Made by a program: the position numbers and the translations under genes
Notes under the pieces: model-generated
What the model was told of the DNA's origin: nothing
The model's input: the letters and a program-made list of their open reading frames with translations, nothing else
Database searches by the model: none
Source of the DNA: Ruminococcus flavefaciens
Lineage (GTDB): Bacteria; Bacillota; Clostridia; Oscillospirales; Ruminococcaceae
Assembly (NCBI GenBank): GCA_015067005.1
Contig: SVNH01000006.1
Coordinates: 1-64,000 of the forward strand
Length of the DNA stretch: 64,000 nucleotides
Direction of reading: 5' to 3'
Shown here: one piece after another, positions 23,927 through 47,134 of the stretch
Layout: the number at the start of each line of letters is the position of its first letter
Position numbering within the stretch: the stretch's first letter is position 1

Positions 23927-25489
23927 TCATTTGCCGTCAATATCAGCATATCCGACCTGACCGTTATACTTGTTCACCATATCCTTCAGAGCTGTGATAA
24001 CTGAACCGTTTATCTTAGTGGACTTCTTAACGATAGCAGCCTTGAACTGGAATGTATGCTTTCCAACAGGAGTGCTCTGCTTGGAGTTGAGCTTATCCAT
24101 TGCTTCATTGACCATATCCATTACAGATTCCTTAGTAACCGACTTGTTATCGCCCTTGATAGCAATTACAAATTCATCAGAACCTGTACGATAGATCTTG
24201 CCGCCTCTTACAGTCTGCTTCAGCTGATCCACTGTTCTGACGAGCAGCCAGTCGCCTATATCGTTTCCGTACTGCGAGTTAACTCCGCTGAAATCAGCGA
24301 TGTTGAACATTGCGAAGAAGTAAGGTGTATCGCTGCTAACCTTCATTTCATCTGCGTCCATTGAGAACGAGATACGGTTGTTTACATCTGTAAGAACATC
24401 CTTGAACATAGCAGTATAAAGCGATTCCTTAGTCTTGTTGTTCTTAACGATAGTGGAAGCGAGCTTCTGGCTTACCTTCTGCTGCTTTCTTGTGATGAAG
24501 CTGAATACTATCATGAGACCGATGAGGATGATAGCAAAGATTATCATGTATACTCTGAGGTCATAGGTAAGTGAGTAAACCTCTTCTCTTGTATCATCGA
24601 GCATGAGCAGCCAGCCGTACTCAGGAATATATGAGTAAATGGATACGTACTTCTTGCCGTCCTTCTTATACTCGAAATCGCCGTCCTCAGCTTGTTTTGT
24701 ACCTGCGTATTTCGCACAGATATCCTGTATGTCCTGATTCTCGGCAGGCTTATACATAAGATCCTTGTCATCGTTAAAGACGTATCTTCCGTCATTAACG
24801 TTGACCATGCTGTAAGATGAGTTTTCGATTCCCTTGATAGAAAGCGAATTGAGTTTATTGATAAGCTGCTCGGTGTAAATACCAAGACCAACGAAGCCGA
24901 TAGGCTCGCCTGCGTCGTTATATACAGCCTTATACATTGATACGATCTGCTTACTTGTAGCCGGTGAAAGGATCATGCCGGTATTATAAACGTCATTGCC
25001 TGCTTCAAGCATAGCGTCCTGAAGCTGTTTGAGTTCCTTTTCCTTAGTGTCCTTAGGTCTTGTGGTCATGCCGACTGTCTTAGGATTTGTATGAGCGAGA
25101 CAGTGAGTTTCCCACGAACCGATCCAAAGACCTTCAAGGTTATCTATCTCACCGGAGAAAGCCTCAGTGTAAGCCTGAGCTGCTGCGATAAGTTCGCTGC
25201 TGCCGGAATCACTGAGAATATCAGTAGACTGTCCGAGCGCATTCTGTCTTTCGAGAAGCTTCTTGACCTCATAACCTTCACTGAAATATGTAAGTGTCTT
25301 TTCAGCGTTTTCAACATAGTTGAGAATGATAGAAGCACGCTCATCAGTAATGGTCTGCATATGTTCGATAGCATTCTTCTTGGTAGTTTTTGTAATAGTT
25401 GCTGTCATTATAGTTGAAAGTACGATCATAAGCACAAGCTGTATTATGAGCGCAACACTCAAAGCCGATATTTTCTTAGAACCATTCAT
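23927..25489 (-). CDS. dCache-type sensor with GGDEF domain (GSDEF variant)
   Basis: N-terminal TM and long extracytoplasmic domain, second TM, then FKDVLTDVNNRISF...YRTGSDEFVIAIKG. Confidence 0.9.
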   Translation of the reverse strand: MNGSKKISALSVALIIQLVLMIVLSTIMTATITKTTKKNAIEHMQTITDERASIILNYVENAEKTLTYFSEGYEVKKLLERQNALGQSTDILSDSGSSELIAAAQAYTEAFSGEIDNLEGLWIGSWETHCLAHTNPKTVGMTTRPKDTKEKELKQLQDAMLEAGNDVYNTGMILSPATSKQIVSMYKAVYNDAGEPIGFVGLGIYTEQLINKLNSLSIKGIENSSYSMVNVNDGRYVFNDDKDLMYKPAENQDIQDICAKYAGTKQAEDGDFEYKKDGKKYVSIYSYIPEYGWLLMLDDTREEVYSLTYDLRVYMIIFAIILIGLMIVFSFITRKQQKVSQKLASTIVKNNKTKESLYTAMFKDVLTDVNNRISFSMDADEMKVSSDTPYFFAMFNIADFSGVNSQYGNDIGDWLLVRTVDQLKQTVRGGKIYRTGSDEFVIAIKGDNKSVTKESVMDMVNEAMDKLNSKQSTPVGKHTFQFKAAIVKKSTKINGSVITALKDMVNKYNGQVGYADIDGK

Positions 25490-25511: not shown

Positions 25512-26264
25512 TTATTTATTGAAAAAACCAAATCGTTTTTTCTTGGATGTTATCCGGTCGATCTCTTCGTCATCGTCTGAAGCAGCTCTCAACAGACTAT
25601 TCACTCTGTTTTTCAGAAGATCGCTGCTCGAATTATTACTTGTTGCAGTTACAACTTCCTCTTCGTCTTCATCGTCTTCATCATCGACCTGCTGAGCAGC
25701 CGGCTGCGGCTGAGCCTTCGGAAGCGGATTAACAGGAGGCGGAGGTGCTGCCGGCTGATTTACCGGCGGCGGAGTTACTGGCTGTGCTGGTGCTCTGTTG
25801 AAGCCATTGCCCATTATTACCGGACCGTTATTCCCGCCGCGCATCATAGGCGGTTCAGGAACAACTCCCGGATTTGAAGCAAACATTCCAACATCAGTGA
25901 TCCTTATCATTCTGTCAGGCATCAGCAGTACACAGTTAGCGTTTTCCGGATGCAGCGAAAGAATATAGCCGATACAGTTATTACACGGCAGCATCTGCAT
26001 TCTTGTCTGAGTAGCTATAAGCACGAGCTCATCAATAATATTTTCTCCTGCATCAAGCATACTCTGAACAGCTTCTACCTCAGCGTGTACTCCCATTACA
26101 CCCGGTGCATTAAGACGGCTTACACCTGTAAACACTCTTCCGGATCTTGTTCTGATAGCACAAACAGTATCATCAGGTGATACGAAATGATTTGATTCAA
26201 GTACCCTGATCGCAATAGTATGTGCTGCATTGATAGTATCATTAGTGTTCATTTGTGCTTTCAC
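25512..26264 (-). CDS. Cytidine-deaminase-like domain protein with Pro-rich/acidic C-terminal tail
   Basis: RSGRVFTGVSRLNAPGVMGVHAEVEAVQSMLDAGE...LPCNNCIGYI (HAE + PCxxC), then a PPP/QP-rich and DDEDDEDEEE tail. Confidence 0.75.
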   Translation of the reverse strand: MKAQMNTNDTINAAHTIAIRVLESNHFVSPDDTVCAIRTRSGRVFTGVSRLNAPGVMGVHAEVEAVQSMLDAGENIIDELVLIATQTRMQMLPCNNCIGYILSLHPENANCVLLMPDRMIRITDVGMFASNPGVVPEPPMMRGGNNGPVIMGNGFNRAPAQPVTPPPVNQPAAPPPPVNPLPKAQPQPAAQQVDDEDDEDEEEVVTATSNNSSSDLLKNRVNSLLRAASDDDEEIDRITSKKKRFGFFNK

Positions 26265-26674
26265 CCCTGCGTTCTTATACTTTAAATAAGTGCTTTATAT
26301 TATTGTACACCTATTCTCCGAATACTTCTACCGAATTGTTTGTAGAGTTGATTGAAATACTATTAAATATAATTAGTAAATTTGTGACTTATTTTCTTTT
26401 TTAAACTAATGGCTAATTCTTTTGAAATATTTCGTCTTGTGTATATATTAATAATAGCAAATTTTTAAGCTTTTGTCAATGAAAGTTGTTTGATTGTCGA
26501 TAATTTTGGCTGGTTACACAAATAAACCATATCAAAAATAACAAAAAGTCCAAATTTTAAATTTTGCTTATATAAGTTAAAACTTGATTCGCTTTAAGTC
26601 CGGAATTTGGTATAATATATTAGATTAATCACATTTTCTACACATAGCCACATTCCAGACAAACGTTATGTTAA

Positions 26675-38544: not shown

Positions 38545-39780
38545 TCAGATGTCAACAACAGTGTTGATCATGTTACCGCCGTTCAGCTTAGCATTTCTGA
38601 GTGCTGTATCAAGCTTAACGAGCAGTGAGTTTACGTTGAGGCAGTCGCCCGGGAGGTAGTGGTAAACACTTCCTGAAGCCGGAAGCTGTACTGTAAGGTT
38701 AAGCACATCGTAAGGACTGCTGATAACAGCGTGGATATTCTGAACGATACCCATTGCCTGGCTCTCTGAGATCTCCTTATTGAATACGAAGCAGAACTCA
38801 TTACCTGTGATGTTATAGATCTCGGCAACTGAACCGAACTCACTTTTAAGTCTGTCTGCAACTGCGATAAGATACTCATCACCGAAATCATAACCGTAGT
38901 TATCGTTTATGCTGCGGAAGTTATCCATATCGAATACAGCGATGTTGAAACGATCAGACTCAAGTCTCTCGGTAATATCGTTATCAAGAGCATAACGGTT
39001 CTTCATACCTGTAAGGATGTTCATAACAGCAAGGTCGCTTGCCTTCTGACGTGTAGTCTTGAGCTTAGCGTCAACCTCACGGAGGCTCTTCTCACGCTCT
39101 TCGAGCTCAAGTCTTGCCTTCTTAGCCATTCTTGCGATGAACATGATAGCAATTTCACCAACGATAAGGAGAAGGAACATAGCAGCTTCAACTGAAACGA
39201 AAGCTGTTACAGTCTTTCTTGACTCCTTGGATGCGTCCTGGTTAGCGATGTCGATAGTAGCTTCGAGCATTTCTGAAGCAGTGATCTGAAGCGGATAAAT
39301 ATCCTGAATGTAGAGGTTGTTCATGTTTCCGCTGAAAGCGCTTGTGCCAAGCTGCTGACCGTTTGCATCTACCTTATTGAACATCTCACGGAAGGTGACA
39401 AGTCTGTCATTGTAAGTTGTGATGAATGACTTAGCGTGATTGAATCGACGAACAAGGTCATCGGATTTGCCTTCGAGTTCATCGAAGTCGTCCATAGCAT
39501 CGTAGATGTTATCGAATGCTCGCTGAGTATCCTCAGCAAGAGCAGTAGCATCACCGATGCCGGCAACGATCTGAAGAACGTTACCATTGATGTACTTAAG
39601 TTCTGAGTTGATTCGGTTAACGCAGTTCATAGTACCTGAAGTCTTTTGTGAAATAGCACGGTTTTTGTTTGAAAGATATCCCACGAGCGCCATGTTTGCC
39701 AAAACGACTACCGCAAGAAGAATCGCACCAAATGTATACGCTCTGGACTGATATCGAGCATTATTTCTATCTTTAGCCAT
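38545..39780 (-). CDS. Membrane sensor with GGDEF-fold domain (degenerate signature)
   Basis: Two TM segments; MNILTGMKNRYALDNDI...FDMDNFRSINDNYGYDFGDEYL; signature reads YNITGNEFCFVF. Confidence 0.88.
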   Translation of the reverse strand: MAKDRNNARYQSRAYTFGAILLAVVVLANMALVGYLSNKNRAISQKTSGTMNCVNRINSELKYINGNVLQIVAGIGDATALAEDTQRAFDNIYDAMDDFDELEGKSDDLVRRFNHAKSFITTYNDRLVTFREMFNKVDANGQQLGTSAFSGNMNNLYIQDIYPLQITASEMLEATIDIANQDASKESRKTVTAFVSVEAAMFLLLIVGEIAIMFIARMAKKARLELEEREKSLREVDAKLKTTRQKASDLAVMNILTGMKNRYALDNDITERLESDRFNIAVFDMDNFRSINDNYGYDFGDEYLIAVADRLKSEFGSVAEIYNITGNEFCFVFNKEISESQAMGIVQNIHAVISSPYDVLNLTVQLPASGSVYHYLPGDCLNVNSLLVKLDTALRNAKLNGGNMINTVVDI

Positions 39781-39795
39781 AATTACTTACCTCCA

Positions 39796-40911
39796 TTAAT
39801 AGTTCTCTGGGTGGAGAAGAAGCTGAACGTAAGTATCGTTCAAGTTATCGGCATTTACGTAAGTAACTCCGGTATCAAGAGTCTTCGGAAGGCTGTCATC
39901 ATTAATAGCTTTCTTAGCAAATCTTACTCCAACGTATCCCATATTGTAAGGGTTCTGAATGATAGTACCGTCAAGAACACCTGTCTTGAGATAATCAAGC
40001 TCCTTCTGGTCTGAGTTGAATCCTATTACGAACACCTTATCTGCCATATCGAGTTCTTCAACTGCTCGGCAAACGCCAAGTGTAGTATTTGTATTTGTAG
40101 CATAGAAACAGATAACGTTACAATCTCTTGCGCTGAGAATCTTCATTGCCTCTTCATAAGCAGCATCAATACTTGAACATCTCTCACCTTCGATGAAGAA
40201 CTTCGAGAACATATCAGAGATCTGTTCCTGAGTGAGATCCATCTTTGAAAGATCAACACCATCAGCTGCCATCTGACGCTGAACCTCAGATGCAGTAGAT
40301 TCCTTGAAGCCCTGAATACGCTTATCAGCTGTTGCAGCTGTATGACCTATAATAGCAACAGCGCCGCGTCCGAGACGTGCAACATCGGTGATCTGAACGT
40401 CACCGCGATCCATAACCGCTCTTACTGTATTACTGAGAAGAACTCCATCAGCAGCGTAACGTGCAGCAACAGAACCGCCGTCTATATCGGACGAACTGAT
40501 ACATGAAATAACATTCGGGTAATCTGTTTTTGAGTTGATATTGATGATCTTGATTCCTGCGTCATCAGCCTTCTTGAATGCCTCATCAAGTTCAGCATTT
40601 CCGTTAGGAGCGATGATGATAGCATCAACGTCTTCCTTGATCGCATCATTGATAGCCTCTACCTGTGATGCGAAATCATTATCTCCTGAAGCTGCTGTAT
40701 AGATGATATCATAACCGAGCTCATCACCGGCTGCTTCCGAGCCTTTTTTAACGTCATCCCAGAAAGATACGCTCTTGTTCTTGGTGATAACAGCTATCTT
40801 GCCCTTAGTGCTTCCGCCGCCCGGCTTGCCGCAGCTTGTAGTCATCAGAACTGACATACTAACTGTGCAGAGGGCAAGAGAACTAAGAATCATTTTTTTG
40901 CCTTTGTTCAT
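39796..40911 (-). CDS. Sugar-binding-type periplasmic binding lipoprotein
   Basis: Lipobox MTTSCGK; KIAVITKNKSVSFWDDVKKGSEAAGDELGYDI...DAIIIAPNGNAELDEAFKKADDAGIKIININS. Confidence 0.92.
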   Translation of the reverse strand: MNKGKKMILSSLALCTVSMSVLMTTSCGKPGGGSTKGKIAVITKNKSVSFWDDVKKGSEAAGDELGYDIIYTAASGDNDFASQVEAINDAIKEDVDAIIIAPNGNAELDEAFKKADDAGIKIININSKTDYPNVISCISSSDIDGGSVAARYAADGVLLSNTVRAVMDRGDVQITDVARLGRGAVAIIGHTAATADKRIQGFKESTASEVQRQMAADGVDLSKMDLTQEQISDMFSKFFIEGERCSSIDAAYEEAMKILSARDCNVICFYATNTNTTLGVCRAVEELDMADKVFVIGFNSDQKELDYLKTGVLDGTIIQNPYNMGYVGVRFAKKAINDDSLPKTLDTGVTYVNADNLNDTYVQLLLHPENY

Positions 40912-41419: not shown

Positions 41420-42457
41420 ATGCAGTGCGAGAAATGTGAAGCTCAAGTCGATCCACGACTTGTCTCGTGCCCCAATTGCGGTGCGCCGGTCCCGCAGAAT
41501 ATAGAGGGATTTGAAAATACTATGGAATTCCAGCAGGAACTGCGTTCGATCGTTGTCAACCACGGTCCTTACGGTGTTATCAAACAGAACCGCTTCGTCG
41601 GCCTTCTCAACGACTATATTCCTGATTACAGCAAAGAACGCAGACTACTTATTAATATGTATAGAATGGGCGTTCTCAAGCTTATGCTCAAAGAACCTAA
41701 CCGCGAGATCTCTATAATGCGAGCAAAAAGCTTTATGCTCGGAGATGCTTTTCTCTCCGAAAATGCTACCGAATTCGTACTTGCCTGCTATACATATATG
41801 CTCGGCTGGCCTTATGAATCAACTCTGAAAGTTCTCCCGCCTGACGAAAACGGCGAGGAACAGCCGGTCGAAGAAGCACCCAAGAAACGTGCAGCAAGCA
41901 TTGATGATATGGTGTTCACTCCGCGTAACGCCTTCAGATACCGTCTCAGCAGCAATATCGTTATCCCGGATGGTTTCACAAAACTCGAAGCTTTCTGCTT
42001 CGATAAATTCGGTTCCCTCAGAACGATCCAGCTTCCGCAGTCGCTGCTCGCTATCGGTGAGTATGCTTTCTCAGGATGCAAGCGTCTGAGAGGTCTCGAT
42101 CTTCCTGAATCACTGAGAATTATCAAACAGGGCGCATTCAGCCAGTGTGCAAAGCTTGTGGTAGTCAAGATCCCTAAGGGCGTAATGGAGATCGAAGACA
42201 GCACCTTCTCTTTCTGCACAAGCCTCGAAGTTATCGAGATACCGGATACAGTCAGCAGCATAGGCGCTGAAGCTTTCTCAGGCTGCGATAAGCTGAGAAA
42301 ACTCTTCCTTCCAGAGAGCGTTAAATTCATCGACATCAATGCGTTCTCCTACTGCCCTAACTTAACTATTCATTGCATAGAGAATTCTTACGTTCATAAA
42401 TACTGCCTTGTAAACGGTCTCAGCGTTAAACTCGTTACCTCATCGGCAGAAGTTTGA
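41420..42457 (+). CDS. Zinc-ribbon protein with C-terminal BspA-type (LRR_5) leucine-rich repeats
   Basis: MQCEKCEAQVDPRLVSCPNCGAPV; repeats such as LRTIQLPQSLLAIGEYAFSGCKRLRGLDLPESLRIIKQGAFSQC; no signal peptide. Confidence 0.85.
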   Translation: MQCEKCEAQVDPRLVSCPNCGAPVPQNIEGFENTMEFQQELRSIVVNHGPYGVIKQNRFVGLLNDYIPDYSKERRLLINMYRMGVLKLMLKEPNREISIMRAKSFMLGDAFLSENATEFVLACYTYMLGWPYESTLKVLPPDENGEEQPVEEAPKKRAASIDDMVFTPRNAFRYRLSSNIVIPDGFTKLEAFCFDKFGSLRTIQLPQSLLAIGEYAFSGCKRLRGLDLPESLRIIKQGAFSQCAKLVVVKIPKGVMEIEDSTFSFCTSLEVIEIPDTVSSIGAEAFSGCDKLRKLFLPESVKFIDINAFSYCPNLTIHCIENSYVHKYCLVNGLSVKLVTSSAEV

Positions 42458-42488: not shown

Positions 42489-43832
42489 ATGGTTGAACTC
42501 GAAATCGGTCAGGAAGTTGAAATGGAATACGGAGGGAGCGCTAAGGTTCTCAGCGTTATCGGCAGCGGCGGTCAGGGTACTGTTTATCTTGTAAGATTCA
42601 ACGGTATGAAATGGGCGCTGAAATGGTACGACATCGACAAGATGAAAAAACCAAAGGTGTTCCGCAAAAACCTTCAGAATAATATCAATGACGGTCCGCC
42701 AAGCAATAAATTTCTCTGGCCCAAATATCTGACTAAAGAAACCGAGGACGGTACTTTCGGTTATATAATGGATCTGAAACCCGATGGCTTTGATTCATTT
42801 GTTGATATCCTCAATACATATAAACTTGAGATCGATCCTCTTACAGGTCACGCTGTGAAGAGACCTGTCAAATTCAACAGTCTCTCAGCTATGGTGACAG
42901 CTGTTATCAACATTGTAAACGCTTTCCGTCAGCTCCACAGATCCGGTAAGAGCTATCAGGATCTTAACGACGGAGGCTTCTTCATCAATGTGAATACAGG
43001 CGCTGTTCTCGTCTGCGACTGCGATAATATCGCTCCGGACGGCAGCAACTTCGGTATCGGCGGTAAGCCCGGCTATATGGCTCCTGAGGTCGTAAGAGGC
43101 ATCGCTCAGCCGAATGTTCAGACTGATAAATACTCACTTGCAGTTGTACTCTTCAAGCTTCTCTTCAGAGGAGATCCTATGGAGGGCGAAAAGGTAGTCA
43201 GAGACGTTTGTCTCACCGAATCCTCAGAACTTAAACACTATGGTCAGAATGCAGTTTTTGTATATGATCCGAACGATTCCTCAAACCGTCCGGTAAGAGG
43301 TATCCACGATAACGTTATCAAGTTCTGGAGGATCTATCCGGATTATATCAAGGACGCTTTCATACGCTCATTTACCACTGGTATCACTGAGCCTGCAAAG
43401 CGTATCATAGAGAACGAATGGCAGAAGCTTTTCATCCGTCTCCGCTCTGAAATAATCATGTGCGGCTGCGGCAGAACAAACTTCTCATCAATGTTCGTTC
43501 AGCCGAATGATAAAACATTCAAATGCCCGAAATGCGGAATGGAATTTGCTTCCCTCGGATTCAGCGACCGCGATTACCGTATGCCGCTCTACCTCGGATG
43601 TAAGTTCTATGATTGCGAGATCAGCGCAGATTCAGACGATTTCACAAAGATAGCCGGCGAACTTGTTGAGAACAAGCTCAAGCCCGGTGTTCTCGGAATC
43701 AAGAACTGCTCTGAAAGAAAATGGCGAGCAAAAATGCCTGACGGCGTATTTTATGATATTGCCCCCGGAAAGGGATTCCCTGTTTGGCAAGGTCTTGAAA
43801 TAGACTTTGGCGAAATCAAGGCACAGATATAA
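42489..43832 (+). CDS. Divergent Ser/Thr protein kinase with C-terminal zinc ribbon (TerY-P-triad-like kinase)
   Basis: IGSGGQGTVYLVRFNGMKWALKWY, RSGKSYQDLNDGGFFINV, VLVCDCDNIAP, GKPGYMAPEVVRG, TDKYSLAVVLFKLL; C-terminal CGCG...CPKCG. Confidence 0.85.
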   Translation: MVELEIGQEVEMEYGGSAKVLSVIGSGGQGTVYLVRFNGMKWALKWYDIDKMKKPKVFRKNLQNNINDGPPSNKFLWPKYLTKETEDGTFGYIMDLKPDGFDSFVDILNTYKLEIDPLTGHAVKRPVKFNSLSAMVTAVINIVNAFRQLHRSGKSYQDLNDGGFFINVNTGAVLVCDCDNIAPDGSNFGIGGKPGYMAPEVVRGIAQPNVQTDKYSLAVVLFKLLFRGDPMEGEKVVRDVCLTESSELKHYGQNAVFVYDPNDSSNRPVRGIHDNVIKFWRIYPDYIKDAFIRSFTTGITEPAKRIIENEWQKLFIRLRSEIIMCGCGRTNFSSMFVQPNDKTFKCPKCGMEFASLGFSDRDYRMPLYLGCKFYDCEISADSDDFTKIAGELVENKLKPGVLGIKNCSERKWRAKMPDGVFYDIAPGKGFPVWQGLEIDFGEIKAQI

Positions 43833-43885
43833 TCCGCTGTTGAGTTATCAAACCTATACAGCTTATCGAAAGGATGTATTTAATT

Positions 43886-44761
43886 ATGAGTAACGAAAAC
43901 ATGACAGAGCCAGTAGTAAACGAGAATAAGAACGTTTCAGGTCTCGATGATTTCGAGCCGGCTTCAGCTCCTGAGAATACAGCTCCTGCTGCTGATAGTC
44001 TCCTCGATTTCGATGACGATCCGCTCAGCGCTACCGGTGTTTCAAGAAAAAGCCTTGTTATCTTCTTCCTGATAGATACTTCGGGAAGTATGAAAGGCAA
44101 GAAAATGGGTGAGCTCAATACCGTTATGGAAGAACTTATCCCTGAGATCAGAAGAGTCGGCGAAGCTGATACAGAAGTTAAGGTAGCAGTTCTTACATTC
44201 TCTACCGAAGTAAGATGGATGTATTCAACCCCTATCGCTATCGAAGACTTTGAATGGGCAAGACTCCGTGCAAGCGGCGTTACCAGCATGGGCGCTGCAT
44301 TCAAGGAACTCTCTCTCAGAATGTCCCGCAACAGCTACCTCAATTCACCTTCGCTTTCATTCGCACCTGTTATCTTCCTTATGACCGACGGCTACCCATC
44401 AGATGATTATAAGGAAGGTCTTAAAGAACTCCAGTCCAACAGCTGGTATAAGTTCGGTCTTAAAGCCGCTCTCGGTATCGGTGAAGAGGCTAACGATGAC
44501 GTTCTCGCTGAATTCACAGGCAGCAAGGATACAGTTGTCCACGCTTATTCAGGTACACAGCTCGCTCAGATGATCAAGATCATTGCTGTTACTTCCGCTC
44601 AGATCGGCAGTAAGAGTATGACACTTTCCGATGACAACGGCCGTGAGATCGGCGAAGAAGACGTTTTCTCTGCTAAGCAGAAGCTCCTCGGTCAGCAGAT
44701 CCAGGAACTCGTAAACAACAAGGTAGAAGAAAGCGACGTTCCTTTCGATACAGGCTGGTAA
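43886..44761 (+). CDS. vWA domain protein, TerY-like
   Basis: VIFFLIDTSGSMKGKKMGELNTVMEELIPEI; TSMGAAFKEL; IFLMTDGYPSDDY (complete MIDAS). Confidence 0.9.
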   Translation: MSNENMTEPVVNENKNVSGLDDFEPASAPENTAPAADSLLDFDDDPLSATGVSRKSLVIFFLIDTSGSMKGKKMGELNTVMEELIPEIRRVGEADTEVKVAVLTFSTEVRWMYSTPIAIEDFEWARLRASGVTSMGAAFKELSLRMSRNSYLNSPSLSFAPVIFLMTDGYPSDDYKEGLKELQSNSWYKFGLKAALGIGEEANDDVLAEFTGSKDTVVHAYSGTQLAQMIKIIAVTSAQIGSKSMTLSDDNGREIGEEDVFSAKQKLLGQQIQELVNNKVEESDVPFDTGW

Positions 44762-44833
44762 TATACTCTGTTCCAACAATGCAATACTATAACACAGTAT
44801 ATTTCTACTAATCGGAAGGAGGACTGAGTAAAG

Positions 44834-45751
44834 ATGTTCAACGGTTTCAGCCACTCGGTCAAAGGTGCAAGCCACGACAAATCTGGCCTTGTATGTCAGG
44901 ATAGTTCTTCACATAAGGTCACTGACCGTTACGCTATCGCCGTCGTTGCCGACGGTCACGGAAGCAAGAAACACTTCCGCAGCGATAAGGGATCTAAATT
45001 CGCTGTTGAAGCCACTATCGAGGCTATCGACACTTACTTCGAGGATTACGATCAGTTCGTAAGTAACTTCCCCTCAAACCACAAAATGATCATCAAAAAT
45101 ATCCAGAAACAGGCTATTTTCAACTGGAATAAAAAGGTAAATGCTCACCTCTTGGATAATCCGGTAACAGATGAAGAAAAAAGCAAGTTCACCCCTGAGG
45201 AATTTGAGGCTATCCCGCCCGAATCCTACTACGGTTCAACTCTCATCGCCGGCATCGCCGCTAAGGACTTCACCTTCGGCATCCAGATCGGCGACGGAAG
45301 CCTTGTTGCTATTTTTGATGACGGTGAAGCTATTATGCCAATGGAATATAACGAAGCCGCTCCGGCTAACGTTACCGCTTCTATGTGCAACTCGAACGCT
45401 GCCTCAATGTTCAGCGGATTCTACGTGGAGAACAAGAAGCTTATCGCTATGTATGCTTCTACTGATGGTCTTTACACCTCTTTCGGCAGCGAGCGCGACT
45501 TCCTTGATTATCATACTATAATCACAAGTCAGCTTGCAAATATCGAGAATTTCAAAACAGTTATCATCAATAATCTCACTAAACGTTCACATTTCGGTAC
45601 AGAGGACGATATTTCCCTCTCCTGCGTTTATGATACCGATATTATAGATACTCAGATGGATCTGATCGTATCAAAGGTAGAGGAGAATAAAAAACGTGCC
45701 GCAGCAAGAAAAGCTGAGCTTCTTACCAAAAAGATCGATAATTTTGAATAA
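44834..45751 (+). CDS. PP2C-family protein phosphatase
   Basis: GASHDKSGLVCQDSSSHK...IAVVADGHGSKKHFRSDKGSKFAVEA; TEDDISLSCVYD. Confidence 0.87.
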   Translation: MFNGFSHSVKGASHDKSGLVCQDSSSHKVTDRYAIAVVADGHGSKKHFRSDKGSKFAVEATIEAIDTYFEDYDQFVSNFPSNHKMIIKNIQKQAIFNWNKKVNAHLLDNPVTDEEKSKFTPEEFEAIPPESYYGSTLIAGIAAKDFTFGIQIGDGSLVAIFDDGEAIMPMEYNEAAPANVTASMCNSNAASMFSGFYVENKKLIAMYASTDGLYTSFGSERDFLDYHTIITSQLANIENFKTVIINNLTKRSHFGTEDDISLSCVYDTDIIDTQMDLIVSKVEENKKRAAARKAELLTKKIDNFE

Positions 45752-45895
45752 CTATGCAAATAACGGTTCGTAATACCGTTTAACCGTGAGATCTGCGGAA
45801 TTTCCTCTTTGCTCATAGCAGCCGCAGCTTCTCCGGAATAAATAAGGCGCTGTTCACAGCGTAATATAAATGAAAGGGAAAAGTGGTGTTTGTTT

Positions 45896-47134
45896 ATGGA
45901 AATTAGTGCTTTCTACAATACTGCAAAAAATTTCGCAAACAAGATCAAATCCGAAAGACCAGATATGGTTTCTGATCCGGACGCTTGCCTCTGCCTTATT
46001 ATAGCAGATACAGACGAGATCTTCTCAGGCGTTACTACAATAGGCGTTAACGACGAAGGAAATGTTGTTACAGTTCCTGCTGAGAATATTGCCGTTATGT
46101 CTGTTATTGCAAACGGTAAGGCTAAAGCAAGACAGATGATAATCATTACATTTGATGATAACAGCTTCTTTGAGCCAAGTCAGGACGCTCTGACTATGCT
46201 CGTTAAATCCGGAGCTGAAAACAGCAGCTGTCAGATCGTTACCTCTCCTGAGGAATCTGCTACTGCTGCAAGTATGTGCAATTATACTCCTGATTTTCTC
46301 AGCGATTATGATGATGCAACTTCATCACCTCTCGGTGCTCCGGCTGACTTCGCTGCCGGCTTCGATGTTGATGAATCAAATCCATTCAATGCTCAGAATT
46401 CAAACGGCGCAGCTCAGAACGGTGCTCAGTCCGGCGAAGGTCCTAAGTTCCTCTATGAGACAGCTGCTGATGCTCAGCAGCAGGGCGCAAGCGGTTTCGT
46501 AAATCCACAGCAGAGCGGCTATCCGCAACAGGCTGGTTATCCACAGCAGAGCGGTTACCCTCAGCAGAGCGGTTACCCTCAGCAGAGCGGCTATCCGCAG
46601 CAGGGCGGCTTCCAGCAGCAGGGCGGTTATCCACAGCAGGGCGGCTATCCGCAGCAGGGCGGTTACCCTCAGCAGGGCAGCTTCCCGCAGCAGGGCGGCT
46701 ATCCTCAACAGGGCGGTTACCCTCAGCAGGGCGGATATCAGCAGCAGGGCGGTTTCCCTCAGCCTAATCCTTACATGGGCGCAGGTACACATACCTCAGT
46801 TTACCAGAACGGCGGAGTTAATGCTGCTCCTTACACTCAGGGCTACGGCGGTTCACATTCTGTACACGTTGGCGGCGCTGCACCTCTCCGCAGCAACTAC
46901 CAGCAGAGCAGTGTAATGCTTTCAAAGACAAGCGGCGGTGCTTTCAAGAAGAGACTTAACAGCTTCCTTGATGATGATTCCGATGTAGACGCTGAAACAG
47001 CTGAGATCGCTGCAAACGCTGCAACAGCCGGCGCTACTGACCTTGAAGACGGTCCTATGTCCAAGAACGATATGCTCAAACAGGCTAAGGATAAAAAGAA
47101 AATCGCTAAGGCTAATCTGAAAAGTAAGTTTTGA
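45896..47134 (+). CDS. Degenerate cytidine-deaminase-like domain protein with Q/G/P/Y-rich tandem-repeat tail
   Basis: [40 protein letters not shown] aligns by eye to CDA motifs; PQQ(S/G)GY repeats; conserved-looking C-terminus [13 protein letters not shown]. Confidence 0.65.
46502..46770 (+). repeat. In-frame 15-bp tandem repeat coding (Y/F)PQQ(G/S/A)G
   Basis: About 17 units of NNNYPQQGG-type repeat, e.g. [26 protein letters not shown]. Confidence 0.9.

Follow-up and report, generated by a model that had tools for sequence, protein, structure and literature searches.

A zinc-intact and zinc-lost pair of deaminase-fold proteins and their probable place in an extended TerY-P signalling module of Ruminococcus flavefaciens

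Why does a Ruminococcus flavefaciens genome encode a protein with a complete cytidine deaminase (CDA) zinc site on the same stretch of DNA as a TerY-P operon that ends in a gene for a similar protein? The stretch, called the window here, covers 64,000 nucleotides of contig C6; the genome has 2.79 Mb. The zinc-bearing protein is designated A, and the protein encoded at the end of the TerY-P operon is designated B. A sequence-only reading had proposed that the two are paralogues, that they form an active and an inactive pair with a common C-terminal interaction motif, and that the motif ties the two loci into one network. The open reading frame coordinates that it gave are correct to within the start codon. 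The features of both loci are collected in Table 1.

Table 1. Features of the A locus and the TerY-P/B locus, in window coordinates
Feature	Position	Strand	Basis or remark
Membrane dCache protein with degenerate GGDEF (GSDEF), operon partner 3' of A	23927..25489	-	22-bp gap to A
Protein A, zinc-intact CDA fold	25512..26264	-	250 aa counted from GTG
Basic-aromatic C-terminal end KKKRFGFFNK of A, possible membrane-association peptide	25515..25544	-	such an end in 63/67 A proteins
Shared C-terminal helix and acidic motif of A (LLKNRVNSLLRAASDDDEEID)	25563..25637	-	motif profile E 2.8e-9; in 61/67 A proteins
PCNNC of A, two Cys zinc ligands, residues 93-97	25974..25988	-	orthologue alignment
HAE zinc-ligand/catalytic Glu motif of A, residues 60-62	26079..26087	-	invariant in orthologue alignment
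Promoter-like TTGACA-17-TATTAT, ~200 bp 5' of A	26451..26479	-	consensus match only; such sites occur in the region at a chance-level number
BspA-type LRR protein with N-terminal zinc-ribbon-like CxxC..CxxC, first TerY-P operon gene	41420..42457	+	
Ser/Thr kinase with C-terminal CxC..CxxC zinc ribbon	42489..43832	+	Pkinase match; MCGCG...KCPKCG
TerY-like vWA protein, MIDAS DTSGS...T...TDG	43874..44761	+	VWA match; MIDAS read by eye
PP2C phosphatase	44834..45751	+	PP2C_2 E 1.8e-31
Protein B, CDA-fold paralogue of A, zinc ligands lost (PAE, EPSQDA), PQQGGYPQQ repeats, shared C-terminal motif	45890..47134	+	
PAE, relic of the first zinc motif in B	46076..46084	+	His/Cys ligand gone, Glu retained
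PSQDA, relic of PCxxC in B	46175..46189	+	both Cys gone
Shared C-terminal helix and acidic motif of B	46925..46996	+	motif profile E 5e-9

A zinc-intact protein and its zinc-lost paralogue

The annotated start of A is a GTG at 26264, and an ATG at 26252 is the likelier alternative. The methionine encoded by this ATG, M5 in the annotated protein, is invariant among orthologues, and the Shine-Dalgarno sequence AGGGGTGA lies immediately 5' of the codon, so the ATG is probably the true start. The HAE and PCNNC zinc motifs are present as first described, as is a proline-rich, acidic linker, which separates the CDA core from the C-terminal tail. All but one of 67 distinct A proteins, from 11 genera, have the zinc site (H/C-x-E plus PCxxC). 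The sole A found with the site lost (VAAEK, MPEKS), at L243:6971-7495, retains its sensor partner, the C-terminal motif and the basic tail. Among named relatives the nearest to A, at 95% identity, comes from an uncultured rumen Ruminococcus, and further close relatives belong to R. flavefaciens strains. A plasmid-borne A was sought, and none was found.

An AlphaFold model of A, calculated from its own family alignment, has the CDA fold with a core pLDDT above 90. A Foldseek search of the PDB with this model returned cytidine and blasticidin-S deaminases as the top matches (probability 1.00); a sequence search of the PDB with A returned no match. In classical cytidine deaminases an N-x-E pair binds ribose. 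Alignment reveals that this pair is absent from A, whose GVSRLN aligns with GVNVEN of the canonical L030, and A scores 32.8 bits against the TIGR01354 cytidine deaminase equivalog, whose cut-off is 113.65. Because the ribose-binding pair is missing and the equivalog score is far under the cut-off, ordinary cytidine deaminase was rejected as a label for A.

All three zinc ligands are missing from B in the window. A Pfam search with B at an E-value of 1 gave no match, and its identity would therefore be overlooked by routine annotation. The AlphaFold model of B, also calculated from its own family alignment, nevertheless has the CDA fold (mean pLDDT 95), and its best Foldseek matches in the PDB are again cytidine and blasticidin-S deaminases. 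Sequence searches behave differently. The PQQGGYPQQ array of B (46400-46800 of the window) differs in length between species and resembles Q/P-rich stretches of proteins with no relation to it, the tail of squid rhodopsin among them. Full-length B as a query therefore draws false matches; squid rhodopsin was the only hit in the PDB sequence search, via the Gln/Pro repeat.

The zinc site is variable across the B family. C-x-E and PCxxC are retained in 15 of 61 B relatives, the remainder have lost the ligands in many differing ways, and parsimony on the tree requires at least five losses. Because some members keep the site and the others lost it on at least five occasions with the locus and the tails retained, B derives from a zinc-bearing ancestor and has been turned repeatedly into a pseudo-deaminase. 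Further copies were seen in several relatives. L177 and L179 each have a second, short B-type gene without TerY-P genes, beside genes for a periplasmic-binding protein and a GGDEF protein, and at least the genomes of these loci, G164 and G230, hold two B copies each. At L077 (G097:C54) two GGDEF genes are followed by a third CDA-like paralogue (HSE...DPYQKC), which is convergent with a TerY-P operon.

A and B are paralogues, one zinc-intact and one zinc-lost. BLASTP aligns them over the CDA core with an E-value of 2e-5 and gives a separate local match at the C-terminal motif. Comparison of the two families with hhalign, one aligned from 20 orthologues of A and the other from 18 of B, gave 99.2% probability and an E-value of 1.7e-19 over 124 columns. 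A tree that also included 28 deaminases from their family of bacteria separated A and B, as one clade with a support of 97, from the housekeeping deaminases. The paralogy that had been proposed between A and the 45.9-kb protein of the TerY-P locus is thus confirmed, and with it the profile similarity of the N-terminal domains. The proposal of an active and an inactive pair stands as regards the zinc site, intact in one and lost in the other; "active" goes further than the zinc site for A, which is without the N-x-E pair and has a low equivalog score.

The shared C-terminal motif has the form hydrophobic-Lys-x-Arg/Lys-hydrophobic-x-x-hydrophobic-hydrophobic, followed by an acidic run. The tail of A reads LLKNRVNSLLRAASDDDEEID...KKKRFGFFNK, and the predicted model has a weak helix at residues 216-225, within the shared motif region. 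Run across the whole 2.79-Mb genome, the motif profile finds A (E = 2.8e-9) and B (E = 5e-9) only; the third-best match, in a 21-aa frame, has an E-value of 0.87. A regular expression for the motif has 0 matches among the other ~4,350 ORFs. Motif models built from one family recognize the other weakly, at an E-value of 0.003-0.005 at best in a scan of 5,614 ORFs, and the only two stronger "other" matches above these cross-family ones are both B proteins. As the motif is restricted to A and B in the genome and ORF scans, the likeness of the tails is beyond chance, and chance likeness was rejected. The common motif that had been noticed in the two proteins is therefore real, and it recurs in the orthologues of both; neither of the two refuting outcomes named for the proposal occurred. 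The shared tail would be an interaction motif. Of the 67 A proteins, 63 have a basic-aromatic end of the KKKRFGFFRK type, a possible membrane-association peptide.

Gene neighbourhoods of the two loci

The sequence-only reading overlooked the neighbour of A, a gene for a dCache-GGDEF protein. This gene is directly 3' of A and on the same strand at all 34 loci of a first set, and directly 3' of A at 34 of 36 loci of a named set that overlaps the first and at 20 of 20 additional loci from other genera. One of the two named-set loci without it ends at a contig edge, leaving L237 as the sole real exception. The partner matches the Pfam dCache_1 model with an E-value of 1.1e-8 and 35.4 bits (cut-off 45), with only the second half of the model covered.

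The GGDEF domain of the partner was compared across 51 members, with residues numbered after PleD. The first Asp of DxD is replaced by Asn in 47, the Lys is replaced by Ser in 50, and GGDEF has become GSDEF in 46. The guanine-contacting Asn and Asp are retained in all 51. With this fixed degeneracy around invariant guanine-contact residues, the domain more likely binds or relays than acts as a cyclase. Diguanylate cyclase activity of the partner is disfavoured, the active-site GG[DE]EF and the first Asp of DxD being replaced. At L145:4199-5392 (G179) a PP2C gene directly follows the pair of A and dCache-GGDEF genes, a further hint of a phosphatase link.

The B locus has the order LRR, kinase, vWA, PP2C, B, which most of 34 loci share. 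Beside the TerY-P operon of the window, neither restriction genes nor Ter genes were identified. PADLOC defence models gave no match for A, B or the sensor; the kinase alone had partial matches, of the kinase type. Upstream of the operon, at 38545-40911 of the window, are a GGDEF gene and a gene for a periplasmic sugar-binding-type protein, in divergent orientation. A gene of the latter type is found near the TerY-P operon in 21 of the 34 loci.

About 20 of 61 B genes are directly preceded by a membrane GGDEF gene with an intact catalytic motif, different from the partner of A. Such a gene precedes 13 of the 15 zinc-positive B genes versus 8 of the 46 others (Fisher p = 2e-6). In a tree-based dependence test the relationship between the B zinc site and the GGDEF neighbour was not significant (p = 0.09 or 0.27). 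The idea that the adjacent GGDEF gene drives zinc retention in B was dropped, as the raw association is unsupported by this test; the association may reflect shared ancestry. In L073 (G028:C163) the usual LRR, kinase, vWA and PP2C genes are missing, and several GGDEF genes in a row take their place directly upstream of B. In one Ruminococcus clade (L070, L172, L173, L175, L180, L181, L182, L185 and L186) B is followed on the same strand by a trmB-like methyltransferase gene, pyrC, pyrF, carA and carB, and most B proteins of this clade retain the zinc ligands.

The two loci are joined in some relatives. In L224, L227, L239 and L240 the genes for LRR protein, kinase, vWA protein, PP2C, B, A and dCache-GGDEF protein form an uninterrupted series on the same strand. 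The A unit and the TerY-P/B unit of L241 are ~4 kb apart and face each other. In most genomes the A and B loci are on different contigs. Among 398 genomes of the family A is present in 20, and B is present in 19 of these (Fisher p = 2e-19, uncorrected for phylogeny). Within the genus 27 genomes have A, and 25 of these also have B; the other two are 69% and 73% complete. B accompanies A in all 16 that are at least 90% complete. B without A occurs in 25 of the 378 A-negative genomes of the family and in 47 of 73 in the genus. Because so many genomes have B without A, A is an optional extension and not a core part. The suggestion that the two loci belong to one network is well supported by the contiguous seven-gene clusters of four relatives and by the rarity of A without B (19 of 20 with B), irrespective of the motif.

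An extended module and its alternatives

On balance, A, its dCache/degenerate-GGDEF partner, B and the TerY-P genes probably constitute one extended TerY-P signalling module, which is split into two loci in this genome. The likely role of A is that of a zinc CDA-fold protein at the membrane, an adaptor or an enzyme, linking the sensor with the TerY-P switch. The Cache domain of the sensor would read an extracellular ligand, and the non-catalytic GGDEF domain would relay the state of the sensor to A. The CDA fold of A would be carried on a flexible acidic and proline-rich arm, with the basic-aromatic end anchoring the protein at the membrane beside the sensor, and its zinc site could have a structural role, bind a ligand or take part in a catalytic step. 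B would lack zinc and serve as a pseudo-deaminase scaffold that has a long arm of Gln/Pro repeats and the common helix/acidic motif. A and B would then pass the signal to the kinase/phosphatase/vWA switch, their coupling brought about by oligomerization of the fold, by docking of the common tail on the same partner, or by both. The deaminase fold would act mainly as an assembling relay in the module. We infer membrane association, oligomerization, docking, the direction of the signal and any deamination by A. The more specific proposal, that the Cache sensor feeds the TerY-P switch via a duplicated deaminase fold that forms an asymmetric zinc/pseudoenzyme scaffold, docking by the common helix and acidic tail, is put forward tentatively, as a plausible reading that falls somewhat short of probable.

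The strongest competing reading, which we consider rather unlikely, takes A for a true deaminase that makes or clears a signal. A would then primarily deaminate a nucleoside, a nucleotide or a small molecule related to these in a zinc-dependent reaction, the product or substrate being a signal or a compound cleared in stress, and B would be a regulatory pseudo-subunit whose site is retained in other species. The constancy of the His/Glu/Cys/Cys site (66 of 67 A proteins, 11 genera), the nearness of the fold to cytidine and blasticidin-S deaminases, the C.E...PCxxC pattern retained in 15 of 61 B proteins and the pyrC-pyrF-carA-carB genes after the B operon in one Ruminococcus clade are all consistent with an enzyme. 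However, A is without the N-x-E ribose-binding pair (GVSRLN vs GVNVEN) and scores 32.8 bits against the cytidine deaminase cut-off of 113.65, and the genome also encodes a separate BSD-like deaminase (L002). Moreover, the zinc site is gone from most B proteins and from one A (L243), with the remaining protein and the locus retained. Since B and its locus persisted when the zinc site was lost, catalysis is not why B is kept.

The invariance of the guanine-contact Asn and Asp (51/51), despite the loss of metal and catalytic residues, would also fit a nucleotide-second-messenger device, in which the GGDEF-like domain of the partner binds a guanine nucleotide that A modifies, senses or titrates, and the TerY-P link is secondary. 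Many B genes are directly preceded by a different, intact membrane GGDEF gene, and L073 has its GGDEF array, which point the same way; but the association between B zinc and GGDEF genes (13/15 vs 8/46) is not significant on the tree (p = 0.09 or 0.27), and the literature searched holds no precedent, so that such a device seems improbable. Least credible of all, and very improbable in our judgement, is paralogy without shared function, with A a stray cytidine deaminase relative beside a diguanylate cyclase and the two tails converged. Acidic low-complexity tails are prone to convergence, the motif is short, and motif models of one family recognize the other weakly. Yet the motif is confined to A and B in the genome and is retained in 61 of 67 A proteins, and A hardly ever occurs without B (p = 2e-19) and forms contiguous clusters with it in several lineages. 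The extended TerY-P module remains the preferred reading.

Significance and comparison with known systems

TerY-P systems are widespread but have no known inputs. Here the candidate input is a membrane Cache sensor whose GGDEF domain is degenerate, and a zinc/zinc-less pair of deaminase-fold proteins with a private common tail is a candidate relay into the switch. If the asymmetric-scaffold reading is true, this would be a new wiring of external sensing into TerY-P systems. The repeated independent loss of the enzyme site in B, and its retention in the sister protein A, offer a case in which to study how an enzyme turns into a scaffold. Cultured strains of Ruminococcus flavefaciens with the genes allow the link between A and TerY-P to be tested.

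The individual elements have known relatives, and their combination is an extension of TerY-P systems that is undescribed in the profile libraries and papers searched, which did not include the primary 2012 Ter paper. None of these papers linked TerY-P, a deaminase fold and GGDEF. A and B resemble the CDA/blasticidin-S deaminases (PF00383, TIGR01354), A in fold and in its zinc/Glu site, B in fold only. Unlike these enzymes, A is without N-x-E, has a sub-cut-off equivalog score, and possesses a long disordered arm and a conserved C-terminal tail, and B has neither zinc ligands nor a Pfam match. The partner of A shares an extracellular Cache-like domain, a TM segment and a cytoplasmic GGDEF-like domain with the dCache-GGDEF diguanylate cyclases (PF02743 plus PF00990; rumen dCache_1 receptors, PMC9540692), and differs from them in the replacement of catalytic and metal GGDEF residues in nearly all members and in its constant pairing with a CDA-fold protein. 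For the dCache_1 AI-2 receptors (CahR), five PctA pocket residues are given: R126, W128, Y144, D146 and D173 (PMC9540692).

As summarized in PMC11090510 from Anantharaman et al. (2012), the TerY-P triad consists of a vWA protein, a PP2C phosphatase and a Ser/Thr kinase with a C-terminal zinc ribbon, and such modules are hypothesized to be metal-sensing phosphorylation switches (PMC11090510). The window holds all three in order at 42489-45751, complete with the CxC..CxxC ribbon of the kinase and the DxSxS...T...D MIDAS of the vWA protein. The operon differs from the triad in adding an LRR/zinc-ribbon protein and the CDA-fold pseudo-deaminase B, to which part of the family further adds the zinc-intact A and the dCache-GGDEF sensor.
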